Shown here in pieces: positions 46,225-51,783 of a stretch of 64,000 nucleotides of DNA; positions within the stretch are counted from its first letter, which is position 1; the number at the start of each line of letters is the position of its first letter. This DNA is from Hyphomicrobium album. GTDB taxonomy: Bacteria > Pseudomonadota > Alphaproteobacteria > Rhizobiales > Hyphomicrobiaceae. The stretch covers positions 1,178,001 through 1,242,000 of the forward strand of contig NZ_WMBQ01000002.1 in the NCBI RefSeq assembly GCF_009708035.1, written 5' to 3'. A program made the translations under genes and the position numbers. Under the pieces are notes generated by a model, which was not told where the DNA came from, made no database searches, and saw only the letters and a list, made by a program, of their open reading frames with translations.

Positions 46225-46536
46225 ATGCTCAACGACATTTCGCTCATGCGCCGAATCATTTTTCCCCTCATTGCCGTCGTCGCCACACTGCCGCCCGCCG
46301 TCGCGACGGATGCGTGCATCGCCGATTGGTCGGACGCCGCATCGATCGTGCATCAGAAAAAGCTGACGACCGTCGAGGCGCTATCGCGCCTCGCGGCGGC
46401 CGAGCTTCCCGGCGCCATCGTCAAGACGACGCTGTGCGAGGAGAAGGGGAGCTTCGTCTACCGGCTCGTCGTGCGCGACCCGCAGGGCAAGCTCACCGCC
46501 CACACCGTCGACGCGCGTGCGCCGTTCGGCCGCTGA
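46225..46536 (+). CDS. Small exported PepSY-like hypothetical protein
   Basis: A 103-residue protein with a signal peptide (IIFPLIAVVATLPPAVATDA), two cysteines and a core (TVEALSRLAAAELPGAIVKTTLC, VYRLVVRDPQGKLTAHTVDA) with the strand pattern of a PepSY domain, often an inhibitor of proteases or a metal-linked accessory domain. ATG at 46246 is an alternative start. Function unknown. Confidence 0.65.
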   Translation: MLNDISLMRRIIFPLIAVVATLPPAVATDACIADWSDAASIVHQKKLTTVEALSRLAAAELPGAIVKTTLCEEKGSFVYRLVVRDPQGKLTAHTVDARAPFGR

Positions 46537-46580
46537 CAATCTTTGCCACGCGGGTTCGCAATAGTGCGCGCATGTCCTAA

Positions 46581-46612
46581 GGTTGCGCCAAGCCCCATTT
46601 CGAGGGCGCAAC
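46581..46612 (+). promoter_or_regulatory. Hairpin just before the DUF1428 ribosome binding site
   Basis: A perfect 9-bp stem (ggttgcgcc / ggcgcaacc) with a 14-base loop lies directly before the ggagg of the next gene. It could influence translation. Confidence 0.35.
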
Positions 46613-46627
46613 CAACGGAGGAGCGCA

Positions 46628-46993
46628 ATGGCTTACGTCGACGGATTCGTGCTGGCGGTACCCAAGAAGAACCTCCCAGCCTACAAGAAGCTGGCGCAGC
46701 TGGCCGGCAAGGTCTGGATGGAGCACGGCGCCCTGGAGTTCAAAGAGTGCGTCGCCGACGACGTGAAGGTCGGCAAGCTGACCTCGTTTCCCCAGGCGGT
46801 GAAGCTGAAGGCGGGGGAGGTCGTCGTCTTCTCCTACATCGTCTACAAGAACCGCGCCGCGCGCGACAAGATCAATAAAAAGGTCATGGAGGACCCGCGG
46901 CTGACGGCGATGATGGCGGGCAAGGACATGCCGTTCGACGGCAAGCGGATGATCTACGGCGGCTTCGAGACGCTGGTGACGCTCGAGGCCTGA
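46628..46993 (+). CDS. DUF1428 family protein
   Basis: A 121-residue protein with the family text MAYVDGFVLAVPKKNLPAY, KVWMEHGALEFKECVADDV, KAGEVVVFSYIVYKNRAARDKIN and MPFDGKRMIYGGFE, all diagnostic of DUF1428. The fold is a ferredoxin-like dimer related to ABM monooxygenases; the role is unknown. A good ggagg precedes ATG 46628. The composite repeat starts nine bases after its stop. Confidence 0.93.
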   Translation: MAYVDGFVLAVPKKNLPAYKKLAQLAGKVWMEHGALEFKECVADDVKVGKLTSFPQAVKLKAGEVVVFSYIVYKNRAARDKINKKVMEDPRLTAMMAGKDMPFDGKRMIYGGFETLVTLEA

Positions 46994-47001
46994 CGGCGCC
47001 C

Positions 47002-47077
47002 CTAGTGTGATGATCGAGAAATTCGCCAGCATCAGTGGCGAGGGATCGAGCGAATTTCTCGATCTGACTCACACTAG
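47002..47077 (+). repeat. Module A of the composite palindromic repeat, copy 1
   Basis: Arms ctagtgtgatgatcgagaaa and the reverse form ending tcacactag pair as a long stem around a central, non-palindromic 25-base part. Module B follows after 13 bases. Compare 47899-47974 and the inverted copy at 50560-50635. Confidence 0.9.
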
Positions 47078-47090
47078 AGAATCTATGTTT

Positions 47091-47168
47091 CTAGTGTCCC
47101 TTATGATTCCGAAGTTCGCTCCCGATCCCAGCCGCGCGCGCTGGCGAACTTCGGAATCGGGACACTAG
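47091..47168 (+). repeat. Module B of the composite palindromic repeat, copy 1
   Basis: Outer arms ctagtgtccc and gggacactag, inner arms attccgaagttcgc and gcgaacttcggaat, around a GC-rich centre. It lies 62 bases before the response-regulator start. Confidence 0.9.
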
Positions 47169-47230
47169 GATCGCGCCACCTGCATCGCTATAGTCCCCGC
47201 GAGTCAACGAAGCAGTGAGGGACTGAGGTC

Positions 47231-47902
47231 GTGCGCGTCCTGGTGGTCGAGGATGACAAGGATCTGAACCGGCAGCTCGTCGCGGCGCTGGGCGACGCGG
47301 GCTATGCGGTCGATTCCGCGATGGACGGCGAGGAGGGTTACTTCCTCGGCGACACCGAGCCCTACGACATCGTCATCCTCGACATCGGCCTGCCGAAGAT
47401 GGACGGCATCTCCATCCTCGAGCAGTGGCGTCGCGCCGACCGCAAGATGCCGGTCATTATCCTCACCGCGCGCGACCGCTGGAGCGACAAGGTCGCCGGC
47501 ATGGACGCAGGCGCCGACGACTATCTCGCCAAGCCGTTCCACATGGAGGAGCTGTTGGCGCGCGTGCGCGCCCAGGTTCGCCGCGCCTCCGGCCACGCCA
47601 AGAGCGAGATCGAGTGCGGGCCACTGCGGCTCGACACCAAGACGGCGCGCGTCACCTGCAACGGCCAGCAGATCAAGCTCACCTCGCACGAGTACCGTCT
47701 GCTCGCCTACATGATGCACCACAACGGCCGCGTCGTGTCGCGCACGGAGCTGGTCGAGCATCTCTACGAGCAGGACTTCGACCGCGACTCGAACACGATC
47801 GAGGTGTTCATTGGCCGCCTGCGGAAGAAAATACCCGTGGATGTAATCGAGACGGTGCGCGGACTGGGCTATCGGCTGAGCGAAACGCCCGCTAAGGGCT
47901 AA
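47231..47902 (+). CDS. feuP: OmpR-family response regulator, FeuP-like
   Basis: A 223-residue regulator. The receiver domain has D51 as phosphate acceptor (VILDIGLPKMDG), K101 (YLAKPF) and the acidic pair near residue 8. The C-terminal winged helix contains LTSHEYRLLAYMMHHNGRVVSRTEL and the FIGRLRKKI helix. GTG start. The gene before ccmI with a sensor kinase is named feuP in rhizobia, where it helps osmoadaptation and outer-membrane control. Its stop codon is formed inside the repeat arm that follows. Confidence 0.9.
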   Translation: MRVLVVEDDKDLNRQLVAALGDAGYAVDSAMDGEEGYFLGDTEPYDIVILDIGLPKMDGISILEQWRRADRKMPVIILTARDRWSDKVAGMDAGADDYLAKPFHMEELLARVRAQVRRASGHAKSEIECGPLRLDTKTARVTCNGQQIKLTSHEYRLLAYMMHHNGRVVSRTELVEHLYEQDFDRDSNTIEVFIGRLRKKIPVDVIETVRGLGYRLSETPAKG

Positions 47903-47974
47903 TGCGATGATCGAGAAATTCGCAACCATCTGGGGCGAGCTGTCGAGCGAAATTCTCGATCTGAATCGCATTAG
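47899..47974 (+). repeat. Module A of the composite palindromic repeat, copy 2
   Basis: Same inner sequence as the copy at 47002, but the outer arms read ctaatgcga and tcgcattag. Both sides changed together, so pairing is kept. The first bases provide the stop codon of feuP. Confidence 0.9.
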
Positions 47975-47988
47975 CAAAGCTAAGCCTG

Positions 47989-48064
47989 CAGTGTCCCTTA
48001 TGATTCCGAAGTTCGCTCCCGGCGCCAGCCGCAAGCTCTGGCGAACTTCGGAATCGGGACACTG
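47989..48064 (+). repeat. Module B of the composite palindromic repeat, copy 2
   Basis: Outer arms cagtgtccc and gggacactg, inner arms attccgaagttcgc and gcgaacttcggaat. It ends six bases before the ATG of the sensor kinase gene, so modules A and B fill the feuP-feuQ gap. Confidence 0.9.
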
Positions 48065-48070
48065 AAAAGA

Positions 48071-49456
48071 ATGCGCTTCAACTCGCTCGCGTTCCGTCTC
48101 TTCGCCACCGCCGCAATCTGGACGCTGCTGGTGTTGCCGATTGCCGGCTTCATCATCTATCGGCTCTACCGCGACGACGTGCAGACGAGTTTCGACGGGC
48201 AGCTCCTCAAGCTCGTCAACGCCATCACCGTCGACAGTATGGGCTCCTCGGGCGATACGCAGCCGCTGCCACCGAGCAATCTCTACGAGCCGCTGTTCGA
48301 GGTGACGCATTCGGGCTGGTACTGGCAGATCCTGCCGCTCACCTCGGGCGGCGGCCGCAAGCTCGTCTCCCCGTCGCTCGCCACCTGGTCGCTGCCGTCT
48401 CCCGCGGCGAAGAGCGTGAAGCCCGACGCGTCCGGCGCCCGCTGGATGAATGCCAAGGGCCCGAAGAACGAGCCGCTGCGGCTGGTCGAAGTCATCGACA
48501 CGCTGGGGCACGAGCCGGGCAAGCCGAAGTATTCGATCGTCGTCGCCGGCCCGCAGGACTGGCTCGACCATCTCGTCGGCAATTTCCGCTACCGCTTGAC
48601 GACCGCGCTGGCGCTCGCCGGTCTCGGGCTCGTGGCGGTGACGCTCTTCCAGGTGCGCTTCGGACTGCTGCCGCTGCGCCAGATCGAGCGCGGCCTGGCC
48701 GGCATCCGCTCCGGCACGGCGACGACGCTCGAGGGCGATCTCCCCGCCGAGATCGAGCCGCTGCAATCGGAGCTCAACGCCCTTATCCGCTCCAACCAGG
48801 CGATCGTCGACCGCGCCCGCACGCAGGTCGGCAACCTGGCGCACGCGTTGAAGACGCCGCTCGCCGTCATCACCAACGAGGTGCGCGGCGACAAGACCGG
48901 TCTCGGCGACAAGATCGTCGAGCAGTCCGAGATCATGAAGCAATCGGTGACGCGCTATCTCGACCGTGCCCGCATGGCGGCGCGCGTCGGCGTCATCGGG
49001 CGGGTGACACCGGTTGCCCCCGTGATCGAGCCGCTGGTGCGCACCCTGCAGCGCATCCACCAGGAGAAGGCCGTCGTCATCAAGGTCGAGTGCCCGCCCG
49101 ACGCGCGGTTCTCGGGCGAGAAGCAGGACCTGGAGGAGATGCTCGGCAACCTGCTCGACAATGCCTGCAAGTGGGCACGCCGCGAGGTGGAGCTGACGGT
49201 GGAGGTGCCGCCATCGACCAGCCGTGCCAAGAACCGGCGCCTCGCCATTACCGTCGCCGACGACGGCCCGGGCCTCAGCGAGGAGGAGCGCGCCCGCATC
49301 GGCAAGCGCGGCCTGCGGCTGGACGAGACGAAGCCCGGATCGGGCCTCGGCCTGTCGATCGTGCTGGAGCTGGCACATTCCTACGGCGGCACTTGCCAGC
49401 TTGAGCAGGCCCGGCAGGGCGGCCTGGCGGTACACCTGAACCTGCCGGCGGGATAA
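48071..49456 (+). CDS. feuQ: Sensor histidine kinase, FeuQ-like
   Basis: A 461-residue kinase. Two membrane helices (LFATAAIWTLLVLPIAGFII and LTTALALAGLGLVAVTLFQV) flank a periplasmic sensor part of about 140 residues, followed by a HAMP-like linker. H258 in the AHALKTPL box is the phosphorylation site. The ATPase domain has NLLDNACKWA, DDGPGLSEEE and GSGLGLSIV. It acts with the response regulator upstream. The spacer between them is a double-hairpin repeat, and only a weak Shine-Dalgarno (gaaaag) remains. Confidence 0.92.
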   Translation: MRFNSLAFRLFATAAIWTLLVLPIAGFIIYRLYRDDVQTSFDGQLLKLVNAITVDSMGSSGDTQPLPPSNLYEPLFEVTHSGWYWQILPLTSGGGRKLVSPSLATWSLPSPAAKSVKPDASGARWMNAKGPKNEPLRLVEVIDTLGHEPGKPKYSIVVAGPQDWLDHLVGNFRYRLTTALALAGLGLVAVTLFQVRFGLLPLRQIERGLAGIRSGTATTLEGDLPAEIEPLQSELNALIRSNQAIVDRARTQVGNLAHALKTPLAVITNEVRGDKTGLGDKIVEQSEIMKQSVTRYLDRARMAARVGVIGRVTPVAPVIEPLVRTLQRIHQEKAVVIKVECPPDARFSGEKQDLEEMLGNLLDNACKWARREVELTVEVPPSTSRAKNRRLAITVADDGPGLSEEERARIGKRGLRLDETKPGSGLGLSIVLELAHSYGGTCQLEQARQGGLAVHLNLPAG

Positions 49457-49652
49457 ACTACCCGCAGTCCGATTCGCCCTATTGCCGCCGGTATTTAGTC
49501 ACGGCCGGTGCACATTCGTTGGCTAGTCGGCTACACTGTGATGCAAATACATGGGGCGAGGGCGGCCGGTCCATGCGGAGGTCCATGCGGAGTATGGCTC
49601 CGCCATGACGCTTCGCCAAGACGACAGGCCGCTGTTCGGGGAGACAATCGCC

Positions 49653-50120
49653 ATGCGCAAAGCGCAGCTATTCGCCGTCGCGCTCATTCCCGCGCTGCTG
49701 CCCGCCTGCAGCGGCGAAACCGCTAATCAGGACACCGGTCTTATCGTCGGCGGCATTGCTGGCGGCATCATCGGCAACCAGGTCGGCAAGGGCTCCGGCA
49801 ACGTGCTGGCGACCGTCGCCGGCGCGATGATCGGCGGCATCGTCGGAAGCGAGATCGGCCGCTCGATGGACGAGCAGGATCGCCGTCTCGCCGAGCAGGC
49901 GGAATACGCCGCGCTTGAGGAAGGCGAATCCGATCGCCCGCGCCGCTGGCGCAATCCCGACAACGGCCGCTACGGCGACGTGGTCCCGGGACGCCCGTAC
50001 AAGCGGGCGAGCGTCGACTGCCGCGACTACACGCACACCGTTTATATCGAGGGCAAGCCGCGGACCATGCGCGGCACCGCCTGCCGCAATCCCGACGGCA
50101 CCTGGAAGAACATGGCCTGA
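49653..50120 (+). CDS. Glycine-zipper surface-antigen lipoprotein
   Basis: A 155-residue outer-membrane lipoprotein. The lipobox is LLPAC with C at about residue 18. A glycine-zipper region follows (GLIVGGIAGGIIGNQVG, AGAMIGGIVGSEIG) and a C-terminal domain (VDCRDYTHTVYIEGKP, GTACRNPDGTWKN) as in rickettsial 17-kDa surface antigens. ATG at 49653 is chosen for the signal peptide; longer starts lack one. Located between feuQ and repeats. Confidence 0.85.
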   Translation: MRKAQLFAVALIPALLPACSGETANQDTGLIVGGIAGGIIGNQVGKGSGNVLATVAGAMIGGIVGSEIGRSMDEQDRRLAEQAEYAALEEGESDRPRRWRNPDNGRYGDVVPGRPYKRASVDCRDYTHTVYIEGKPRTMRGTACRNPDGTWKNMA

Positions 50121-50195
50121 CGCTGCCGGGATTGAATGTCGCCTGACGGCGATGGGGCGCACCGTCGCCAGACGGGAGCAGGACGCTGCCGCACG

Positions 50196-50313
50196 TGTCA
50201 TCCTCGGGCTTGTCCAGAGGACCCAGGGTCTGGCAATCTCCGACGTTGATGCTATCCGGCAGACGTCGGAGCCAATGGAGAGTTGGGTCCTCGGCATAAA
50301 GCCGAGGATGACA
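50196..50313. repeat. 118-bp palindromic repeat, copy 2
   Basis: Terminal arms (50196-50225 and 50284-50313) share tgtcatcctcgggcttgtcc and gccgaggatgaca with the element at 44684-44820. The centre differs, and the right arm has a changed inner loop. Confidence 0.85.
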
Positions 50314-50468
50314 GTGGGGGCTTCGCTCGCGATTCCCACCTCTTCCGGGATGCTGTAACCGTACCCGTGTGACCCAACCCCTTAATCCCCCGTCATCTTG
50401 CGCTGCGGCAGAAATCTTGCCGCGGCGCCCGAGGCTTGTCAGCCGCGCCCCCGAGCCCTATTCCAGCC

Positions 50469-50546
50469 CGAGTGCCCCCATACCGAAGTTCGCCGGTGCT
50501 TGCCGCTGGAGGCGGGAGCGAACTTCGGAATGATGAGGGGCACTCG
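50469..50546 (-). repeat. Module B of the composite palindromic repeat, copy 3 (inverted)
   Basis: Inverted relative to the other copies. Outer arms are cgagtgcccc and ggggcactcg, which differ from the ctagtgtccc form on both sides together. Inner arms accgaagttcgc and gcgaacttcgga are kept. Confidence 0.88.
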
Positions 50547-50559
50547 AATTGTCGACTTG

Positions 50560-50635
50560 CTAGTGTGATTCAGATCGAGAAATTCGCTCGATCCCTCGCC
50601 GCTGACTTTGGCGAATTTCTCGGTCATCACACTAG
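50560..50635 (-). repeat. Module A of the composite palindromic repeat, copy 3 (inverted)
   Basis: The reverse complement closely matches the copy at 47002-47077, with the same outer arms. It ends 20 bases before the ccmI start, so the hairpin lies in the ccmI leader. Confidence 0.88.
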
Positions 50636-50655
50636 GGGCGAGGCTTGGATAGCGC

Positions 50656-51783
50656 ATGGTGCTGTGGGTTCTCTTTGCGGTCTTGGCGGCTGCCGTCGTG
50701 TGGGCGGTGACGCGGCCGCTGCTCGCGCCGGGCCCCTCCACCGCCACTGCCGATAGCGAGCTCGCCGTCTACCGCGATCAGCTGGCCGAGATCGAGACCG
50801 AGCGCGCGCAGGGTCTGCTTGGTGGCGCCGAGGCCGAGGGCGCCCGCGTCGAGCTGGCGCGCCGCGTGATCCGCCGCTCCGAAGAAAAGCAGAAAACCGG
50901 CGCCGCGGCGCAGGAGCGGTTTTCGGGAGTGCGCCAGGCAGCGGTCTATGCGGCGGCTGCCATTCCCGTCATCGGCATCGGCATCTATCTCGCATACGGC
51001 TCACCGCAATTGCCGGGACGACCGTACGCGGCGCGCCTCGAGGCGCCGGTCGATCAGTCGACGGCCGCCGATCTCGTCGCGCGTGTCGAGTCGCACCTGC
51101 GCGCCAACCCCGAGGACGGCCGCGGCTGGGACGTGCTGGCGCCCGTGTATCTGCGGATGGGCGACTTCGTGCAGGCCGCCGACGCCTTCCAGCGGGCCAC
51201 GCGTATTTTGGGTGAAAACCCGAAGCGGCTCGCCGGCTTGGCGCGCGCGACGATCATGGCGCAGAACGGCATCGTCGGCGAGACCGCGCGGGTGTCCTAC
51301 GAGAAGCTGCAACGGCTCGAGCCGCAGTCGATCGAGCCGCAGGTCTGGCTCGCCATCGCGCGCGAGCAGGACGGCGACGTCAAGGGTGCGGAAGCCGAGT
51401 ATCGCCGGCTGCTGCCCGGCGCAGAGGACCCGTGGAAGGGCCTCCTCGAGTCGCGCCTCGCGTCGGTTACGGCGAAGCTCGGCGGCGCAACGTCCGAGCC
51501 ACCGAACGTGCGCCCGGCCGATGCCGCGGCAGCCGCGGCGCCGACCAATCCGGCCGACCGGGATAAGATGATCAATCAGATGGTCGACGGTCTCGCCGCC
51601 CGTTTGAAGGATAACGGCAAGGACCTTGATGGCTGGATGCGCCTCGTGCGTTCCTACGTGGTGCTCGGGCGGCGCGAGGAGGCGACGACGGCCCTGGCGA
51701 GCGCGCGCGGCGCCTTCGCCGGGGACGAGAAGTCGCTCGCCGAGCTCAATGTGCTGGCGGAAAGCTTGGGGCTCGGCTCATGA
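50656..51783 (+). CDS. ccmI: Cytochrome c maturation protein CcmI (CycH)
   Basis: A 375-residue membrane protein of System I cytochrome c biogenesis. Two N-terminal helices (LWVLFAVLAAAVVWAVTRPLL and AVYAAAAIPVIGIGIYLAYG) flank a cytoplasmic part with the family text VYRDQLAEIETERAQGLL. The periplasmic TPR domain follows (DGRGWDVLAPVYLRMGDFVQAADAFQRA). CcmI holds apocytochrome c for heme attachment. It is the first gene of ccmIEFH; the cytochromes at 3357 and 7615 would need this system. Confidence 0.94.
   Translation: MVLWVLFAVLAAAVVWAVTRPLLAPGPSTATADSELAVYRDQLAEIETERAQGLLGGAEAEGARVELARRVIRRSEEKQKTGAAAQERFSGVRQAAVYAAAAIPVIGIGIYLAYGSPQLPGRPYAARLEAPVDQSTAADLVARVESHLRANPEDGRGWDVLAPVYLRMGDFVQAADAFQRATRILGENPKRLAGLARATIMAQNGIVGETARVSYEKLQRLEPQSIEPQVWLAIAREQDGDVKGAEAEYRRLLPGAEDPWKGLLESRLASVTAKLGGATSEPPNVRPADAAAAAAPTNPADRDKMINQMVDGLAARLKDNGKDLDGWMRLVRSYVVLGRREEATTALASARGAFAGDEKSLAELNVLAESLGLGS

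Follow-up and report, generated by a model that had tools for sequence, protein, structure and literature searches.

Double-hairpin repeats of Hyphomicrobium album are probable IS630-related MITEs inserted at CTAG

What are the paired hairpins that recur around a response-regulator/histidine-kinase gene pair of Hyphomicrobium album, and why do their stems stay folded? The window (the whole stretch of 64,000 nucleotides analysed here, contig positions 1178001-1242000 of a 3.9-Mb genome in three contigs) holds three real copies of a 167-base element, each made of a 76-base module A, a 13-base spacer and a 78-base module B. Module A runs from a short outer arm through a 23-base loop to a long inner arm; module B consists of a long inner arm, a loop of about 24 bases and a short outer arm. 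The long arms are thus the inner ones, with 3-4 extra bases, so that the two modules mirror each other.

Copy 1, on the forward strand, comprises the module A hairpin (47002-47077), whose short outer arm resembles one IS630 end and whose inner arm, beyond a variable loop, carries the 3-4 extra bases; the spacer (47078-47090); and the module B hairpin (47091-47168), with its long inner arm, its loop and a short outer arm resembling the other IS630 end. It lies upstream of a response-regulator gene (47231-47902) of the PhoP/PmrA type, an assignment resting on best NCBIfam matches below cut-off. Copy 2, on the same strand (module A, 47899-47974; spacer, 47975-47987; module B, 47988-48065), begins with the bases CTAA, which contain the stop codon TAA of this gene, and ends 5 bases 5′ of the histidine-kinase start codon at 48071; it occupies almost all of the gap between the two genes. 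Copy 3 is inverted, its minus-strand modules lying at 50469-50546 (B) and 50560-50635 (A) on either side of the spacer at 50547-50559. The module A end is 20 bases from a ccmI-like gene at 50656, which copy 3 precedes and which matches TIGR03142 above cut-off. A preliminary description had given the three copies, the two-hairpin plan and the coordinates correctly, except that it ended copy 2 at 48064 rather than 48065, and the outer-arm differences that it quoted are present, module A differing between copies 1 and 2 and module B between copies 1 and 3. Its gene name feuPQ finds no confirmation: the two genes align with families of response regulators and of histidine kinases, and no match listed passes its NCBIfam cut-off. 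All six modules are predicted to fold stably as RNA (z-scores from -5.4 to -8.0; for each module 0 of 200 shuffles was as stable), and an Rfam search of 46500-51000 gave four weak matches, all below the gathering score. A separate pair of 30-base inverted repeats (TGTCATCCTCGGGCTTG...), found at 50196-50313, looks like an alphaproteobacterial CGTC/TGTC-tagged REP dimer.

The preliminary description had proposed looking for the modules in this and related genomes and building a covariance model, and reckoned with the case that the three copies were a recent local duplication with no others anywhere. That case is excluded. The genome itself (G000) carries about 30 copies, besides remnants and related mixed-module variants, and copies 2 and 3 sit at the same sites in the sister genome G005. 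BLAST of copy 1 against the own genome returned 81 matches, a figure that includes fragments and self-matches of the modules on the opposite strand; a generic arm pattern gave 41 matches and its reversed control none. With the DNA query at E 1e-3, matches were found in 11 of 39 relatives, all 11 of the same family, and none in the 16 genomes of other families; copy 1 had no match in plasmid and phage collections at the same threshold. The covariance model R1, built from 61 copies, reached further: at E 1e-6 it had matches in 43 of 297 genomes from the order, a figure that includes the own genome and covers 17 families by our count; the matches listed span the whole model. In the class survey it matched 12 of 289, again with the own genome among them. 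Both surveys scored nine candidates per genome, so that copy numbers there are to be read as "at least". In G009, arm patterns matched 80 times forward and 80 times reverse (controls, 0), and the 20 copies inspected were nearly identical. Among the matches listed, the exact module B pattern occurs in Hyphomicrobium, other Hyphomicrobiales, Xanthobacteraceae, Bradyrhizobium, Phenylobacterium and Caulobacter, and at 70 of 80 module B loci it is part of a four-arm unit of 160-170 bases or of a tandem of two such units; the other 10 are shorter groups or, in one case, show no arm at all by the pattern used. The observation was right, and the preliminary description understated it.

Several variant forms accompany the standard one. 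A second module type (arms CTAGTGTCCTGATCGCGAAATTCG) is joined with A-type modules in L214-L218 of the own genome, which are mosaic subfamilies within one genome. Two G009 loci, one with module A, spacer and CTAG lacking module B (L240) and one with module B only (L243), indicate that modules can be lost or exist singly. Compact forms of 117-131 bases with very short loops (L385-L388) are found in G370 and G586, and among the elements inspected, forms of 117-133 bp were confined to these two genomes and G460; in G370, loops shrink to four bases in elements of 117-121 bases, and the module B bulge is lost in one of three copies inspected. A tandem arrangement in the own genome (L012/L016, C2:894925-895253) corresponds to a single copy in G005; its A modules are identical and its B loops differ. 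By eye, the loops of both modules, in the own genome and in distant elements, seem to have faint GCNGC-type motifs in common, although loops evolve fast.

Covariation of the stems, the central claim of the preliminary description, is borne out at two depths. The first alignment, A1, holds 61 full A+B copies (24 from G000 and 37 from G005, shared copies entering once per genome and C-type variants left out). In it, 97.0% of cells are paired and 21 of 49 pairs have two-sided changes, with 76 two-sided cells against 9.8 in shuffles and 4 to 11 when partners are slid by 1-3 columns. The second holds 44 distinct elements, mostly from other genomes (49 rows minus two repeats of an element and three weak partial matches), with widely different arm sequences; these were fitted to the covariance model, one strand each, and the fit leans towards the structure. 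Here 98.7% of cells are paired and 41 of 49 pairs show two-sided changes (459 two-sided cells; 118 in shuffles). The asymmetry of the arms is systematic. On the inner side, 59 of 61 copies show a 1-by-4 internal loop in module A and 56 of 61 a 4-by-0 bulge in module B; of the 44 distinct elements, 42 have a 1-by-4 or 1-by-5 internal loop, 40 a 4-by-0 bulge and 41 a 13-base spacer.

Empty sites in relatives point to how the element arrived. At the copy 1 site, five relatives without the element carry CTAG at the right-hand junction, although the left flank is too diverged for alignment and one of them, G006, has a second CTAG nearby. Exactly one CTAG marks the empty sites of L009 in G005 and G006 and of L018 in G005. 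In the clearest cases the occupied site thus has two CTAG in place of the single one of the empty site. Joined flanks of 14 other own-genome sites were searched in four relatives: in G005, 12 lack the element, that of L007 still holds a remnant and that of L014 some 45 additional bases, and only two of the 14 show an exact CTAG, the others, L007 and L014 apart, being diverged at the site. The empty sites of copy 1, L009 and L018 suggest that a TA target, within CTAG, is duplicated upon insertion. The tandem copies L012 and L016 overlap by one CTAG. IS630 itself, according to Tenzen et al. in 1990, is said to insert into CTAG.

A first search for an autonomous partner, made with single arms in G009, gave remnants, deletion forms and one inverted loop; the partner came by way of PF13358 (DDE_3). 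(A YTAR-type partner of the IS701/IS5 kind was dropped once IS630 ends turned up.) G009 encodes an IS630-family transposase scoring 288 bits against NF033545 (cut-off 100) and also matching PF13358. Its element, 1,176 bases long, is present as two identical tandem copies with one CTAG common to both, the same overlap as in L012/L016. The ends, TAGTGTCCTGATCGATAAATTT and TAGTGTCCTGATTCCGAAGTTT, both begin with CTAGTGTCCTGAT. The module B arm of the window agrees with the second of them at 23 of 26 positions and the module A arm with the first at 21 of 26, each cross-comparison giving 18 of 26. The contrast between the two IS ends is much the same as that between the two modules.

The resemblance extends beyond G009. 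We compared 46 outer arms, from 23 elements chosen by us at one per genome, with 38 ends of 19 IS630 elements; these were selected visually, for their clear CTAG-type ends, from 40 scanned loci, with two IS630 loci of another subgroup as control. Mean best identity was 13.1 of 18 positions, against 8.7 for shuffled ends, and for 42 of the 46 arms no more than 5% of 200 shuffled sets reached the observed identity; the other four did not beat shuffled IS630 ends. One outer arm, from G257, agrees at 18 of 18 positions with an IS on a Sphingobium plasmid. IS630 elements from plasmids of Sinorhizobium, Rhodovastum and Bradyrhizobium have ends of the G009 type, and that of the Sphingobium plasmid has ends of a related type. 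The pairing of element with resident IS is not tight, as in both genomes with a resident IS end in the set (G009 and G160) the best-matching end came from another genome, and one Sphingobium plasmid IS was the best match for 20 of the 46 arms. Across the order, related IS630 elements were found in 33 of 297 genomes, the repeat in 43 and, by hand count, both in 11 (hypergeometric p 0.003, relatedness ignored); at E 1e-20, no IS630 relative was found in 32 of the 43 genomes with the repeat. Of six element-bearing genomes searched with PF13358, G009 and G013 gave matches and G000, G005, G010 and G020 none, which suggests that the mobiliser is missing from, or has been lost by, these four.

The repeat is very probably a non-autonomous miniature inverted-repeat transposable element (MITE), related to IS630/Tc1-mariner insertion sequences, that inserts at CTAG and whose resident hairpins are constrained after insertion; the mobile origin envisaged in the preliminary description gains support from the transposase-type ends. 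An IS630-type transposase would have placed the 167-base unit as a whole at CTAG by cut-and-paste, with duplication of TA. Each end of the unit would be joined to its own inverted copy, and the additional 3-4 bases of the inner arms would shift the transposase-binding box off the inner CTAG, restricting cleavage to the outer ends. Once resident, the hairpins may serve the host as DNA or RNA structure.

Evidence for constraint comes from copies at the same sites in two species. Eight independent copies are common to G000 and G005, the tandem duplicate pair L012/L273 having been removed before the test. Their arms differ at 50 of 859 positions (5.8%) and their loops at 64 of 375 (17.1%); the arm count includes internal-loop bases and gaps, and Fisher's test, treating sites as independent, gives p 3e-9. 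When only paired columns are taken for the arms, the mean differences are 4.9% and 16.7%. Arms changed less than loops in seven of the eight copies (Wilcoxon p 0.023); arms exceeded loops in one copy, and the two were about equal in one. For nine pairs, tandem duplicate included, the spacer differs at 28 of 117 positions and the flanks at 170 of 1,056. Bias from detecting only well-kept copies is probably mild, since copies with as little as about 70% identity are still picked up and 12 of the 14 G005 sites without a detected copy hold none. Stems that diverge less than loops suggest that the hairpins are constrained after insertion, though the PF13358 search found no IS630 transposase in G000 or G005. 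Decay occurs too: a single site could be aligned across four species, and there the copies of G003 and G006 have decayed, and the response-regulator/kinase gap of these two genomes retains a trace of the element at most.

One reading of this constraint, possible though rather unlikely in our estimate, is a domesticated RNA element, in which intercistronic hairpins act in the mRNA on stability, RNase III processing or translation of the next gene. Stable folds and constrained arms agree with it, as does placement: of 61 copies, 47 are flanked by co-directional genes, and among those 47 the upstream TAG stop is the exact starting point of 20, and 35 have the same orientation (35 to 12, p 0.001). 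These counts depend on gene calls by a predictor of our own, with 14 ORFs as its training set. The pattern persists when shared copies are counted once and one tandem duplicate is dropped (39 of 52 co-directional, 15 of 39 on a TAG stop, orientation 29 to 10, p 0.003). However, 18 of the 25 CTAG sites of the window that fall outside genes are likewise in co-directional gaps or on stop codons, so that placement may merely reflect the supply of targets; relative to these sites, the element shows no significant deficit of convergent positions (p 0.21). Nor do mismatches point to RNA: on the mRNA strand of the 47 copies, G-U mismatches number 19 and A-C mismatches 25, with no excess of the former. 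Of the preliminary proposal that selection acts on the folded form as RNA or as DNA, the covarying stems are supported; the form that is kept may be either, and the wobble test does not favour the RNA level.

Covariation could also arise with no selection on folding, as a mutational by-product of template switching from arm to arm. Private variants mirrored on both arms do occur, in the 61-copy alignment and also, several times over, in the G006 copy L225, whose stems are perfect; the module A loop of L246 (2947-3020, G009), inverted relative to other copies, is likewise as expected from recombination between arms. We nevertheless consider this distinctly improbable. Arms change at one third of the loop rate, the internal loop and bulge keep their lengths in the great majority of copies in both alignments (59 and 56 of 61; 42 and 40 of 44), and between the sister species one-sided changes outnumber paired two-sided ones by 28 to 4. 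Still less probable is that the stems are kept for CcrM (GANTC) methylation sites. The 61 copies do contain 145 GANTC, a density of some 14 per kb where the window has 1.28, and the module A site is kept in 54 of them; yet the module B site is present in only 36, the third window copy has a single site, and L214, L217 and L218 have in identical form a variant long arm, CTAGTGTCCTTCAGATCGCG, that is without GANTC and still has the extra bases. Finally, the inverted pair of asymmetric hairpins and the conserved tetranucleotide might suggest an element of the REP/BIME type that owes its mobility to a RAYT (Y1 tyrosine) transposase. This is hardly credible, as the tetranucleotide is CTAG at both ends rather than GTAG at one, the ends resemble those of IS630, and PF01797 has no match in G000, G005 or G009 (it is present in 4 of 23 genomes searched, the element-bearing G010 among them).

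With an IS630-related MITE as the preferred reading, the statement of the preliminary description that the element belongs to no named family is partly right, although its two-stem-loop plan had been described before. By description, the closest kind is the CIR repeats of Caulobacter and Brucella, the Caulobacter CcrM-associated intergenic repeats of Chen and Shapiro (2003), known to us through excerpts of PMC2229807 and PMC10969869. As those excerpts have it, CIR are alphaproteobacterial and intergenic, with a linker connecting two long independent stem-loops, with TA termini and with GANTC sites, all features in common with the present element; they differ in being about 110 bp long with GANTC at or near a terminal loop, whereas most elements here measure 163-172 bp and have their GANTC in the stem. 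Target duplication of CIR is listed as unknown, and their mobility as unresolved, in the 2007 excerpt (PMC2229807). The compact forms L385-L388 come near the reported CIR size and may connect the two families. Bacterial MITEs linked to IS630, RUP among them, are in the same partial account (PMC2229807) likewise non-coding, 100-200 bp long, with a TA target and IS630-like ends; there, elements other than CIR pair end to end, whereas in the present element each end has a hairpin of its own, mirrored and with inner bulges. The RIME (Rhizobium intergenic mosaic elements) are alike by description in being intergenic and reported within a two-component system (parts of PMC2573895 and PMC2245857). 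GTAG/CGTC REPs also form hairpins, often as inverted pairs, and differ in their 20-40 bp units, other tags and, for GTAG, the RAYT link (PMC3733652, in excerpt). IS630 elements proper have the CTAG target and terminal inverted repeats in common with the repeat; they encode a transposase, and the G009 IS ends lack the inner inverted arm. Among the titles and openings of abstracts listed by searches of an open-access library, none names a 167-bp CTAG two-hairpin element, which may still be in print. What is new here is thus the IS630-linked, CTAG-targeted, mirror double-hairpin MITEs, set apart from CIR by description.

More tentatively, and with the balance somewhat against it, mirror double hairpins might form a class-wide superfamily whose shape persists while the arms are rewritten together with IS630 ends, the hairpins being selected by the host, even after loss of the transposase, in a recurrent domestication of a transposon end into a structural or regulatory element. 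For the alphaproteobacterial two-stem-loop repeats, whose mobility was left open in the excerpted 2007 review (PMC2229807), the present element offers an origin, in IS630, and a target rule, CTAG. Its order-wide covariation and its copies in sister species also make up a large natural data set for asking whether mobile hairpins persist as DNA or as RNA.
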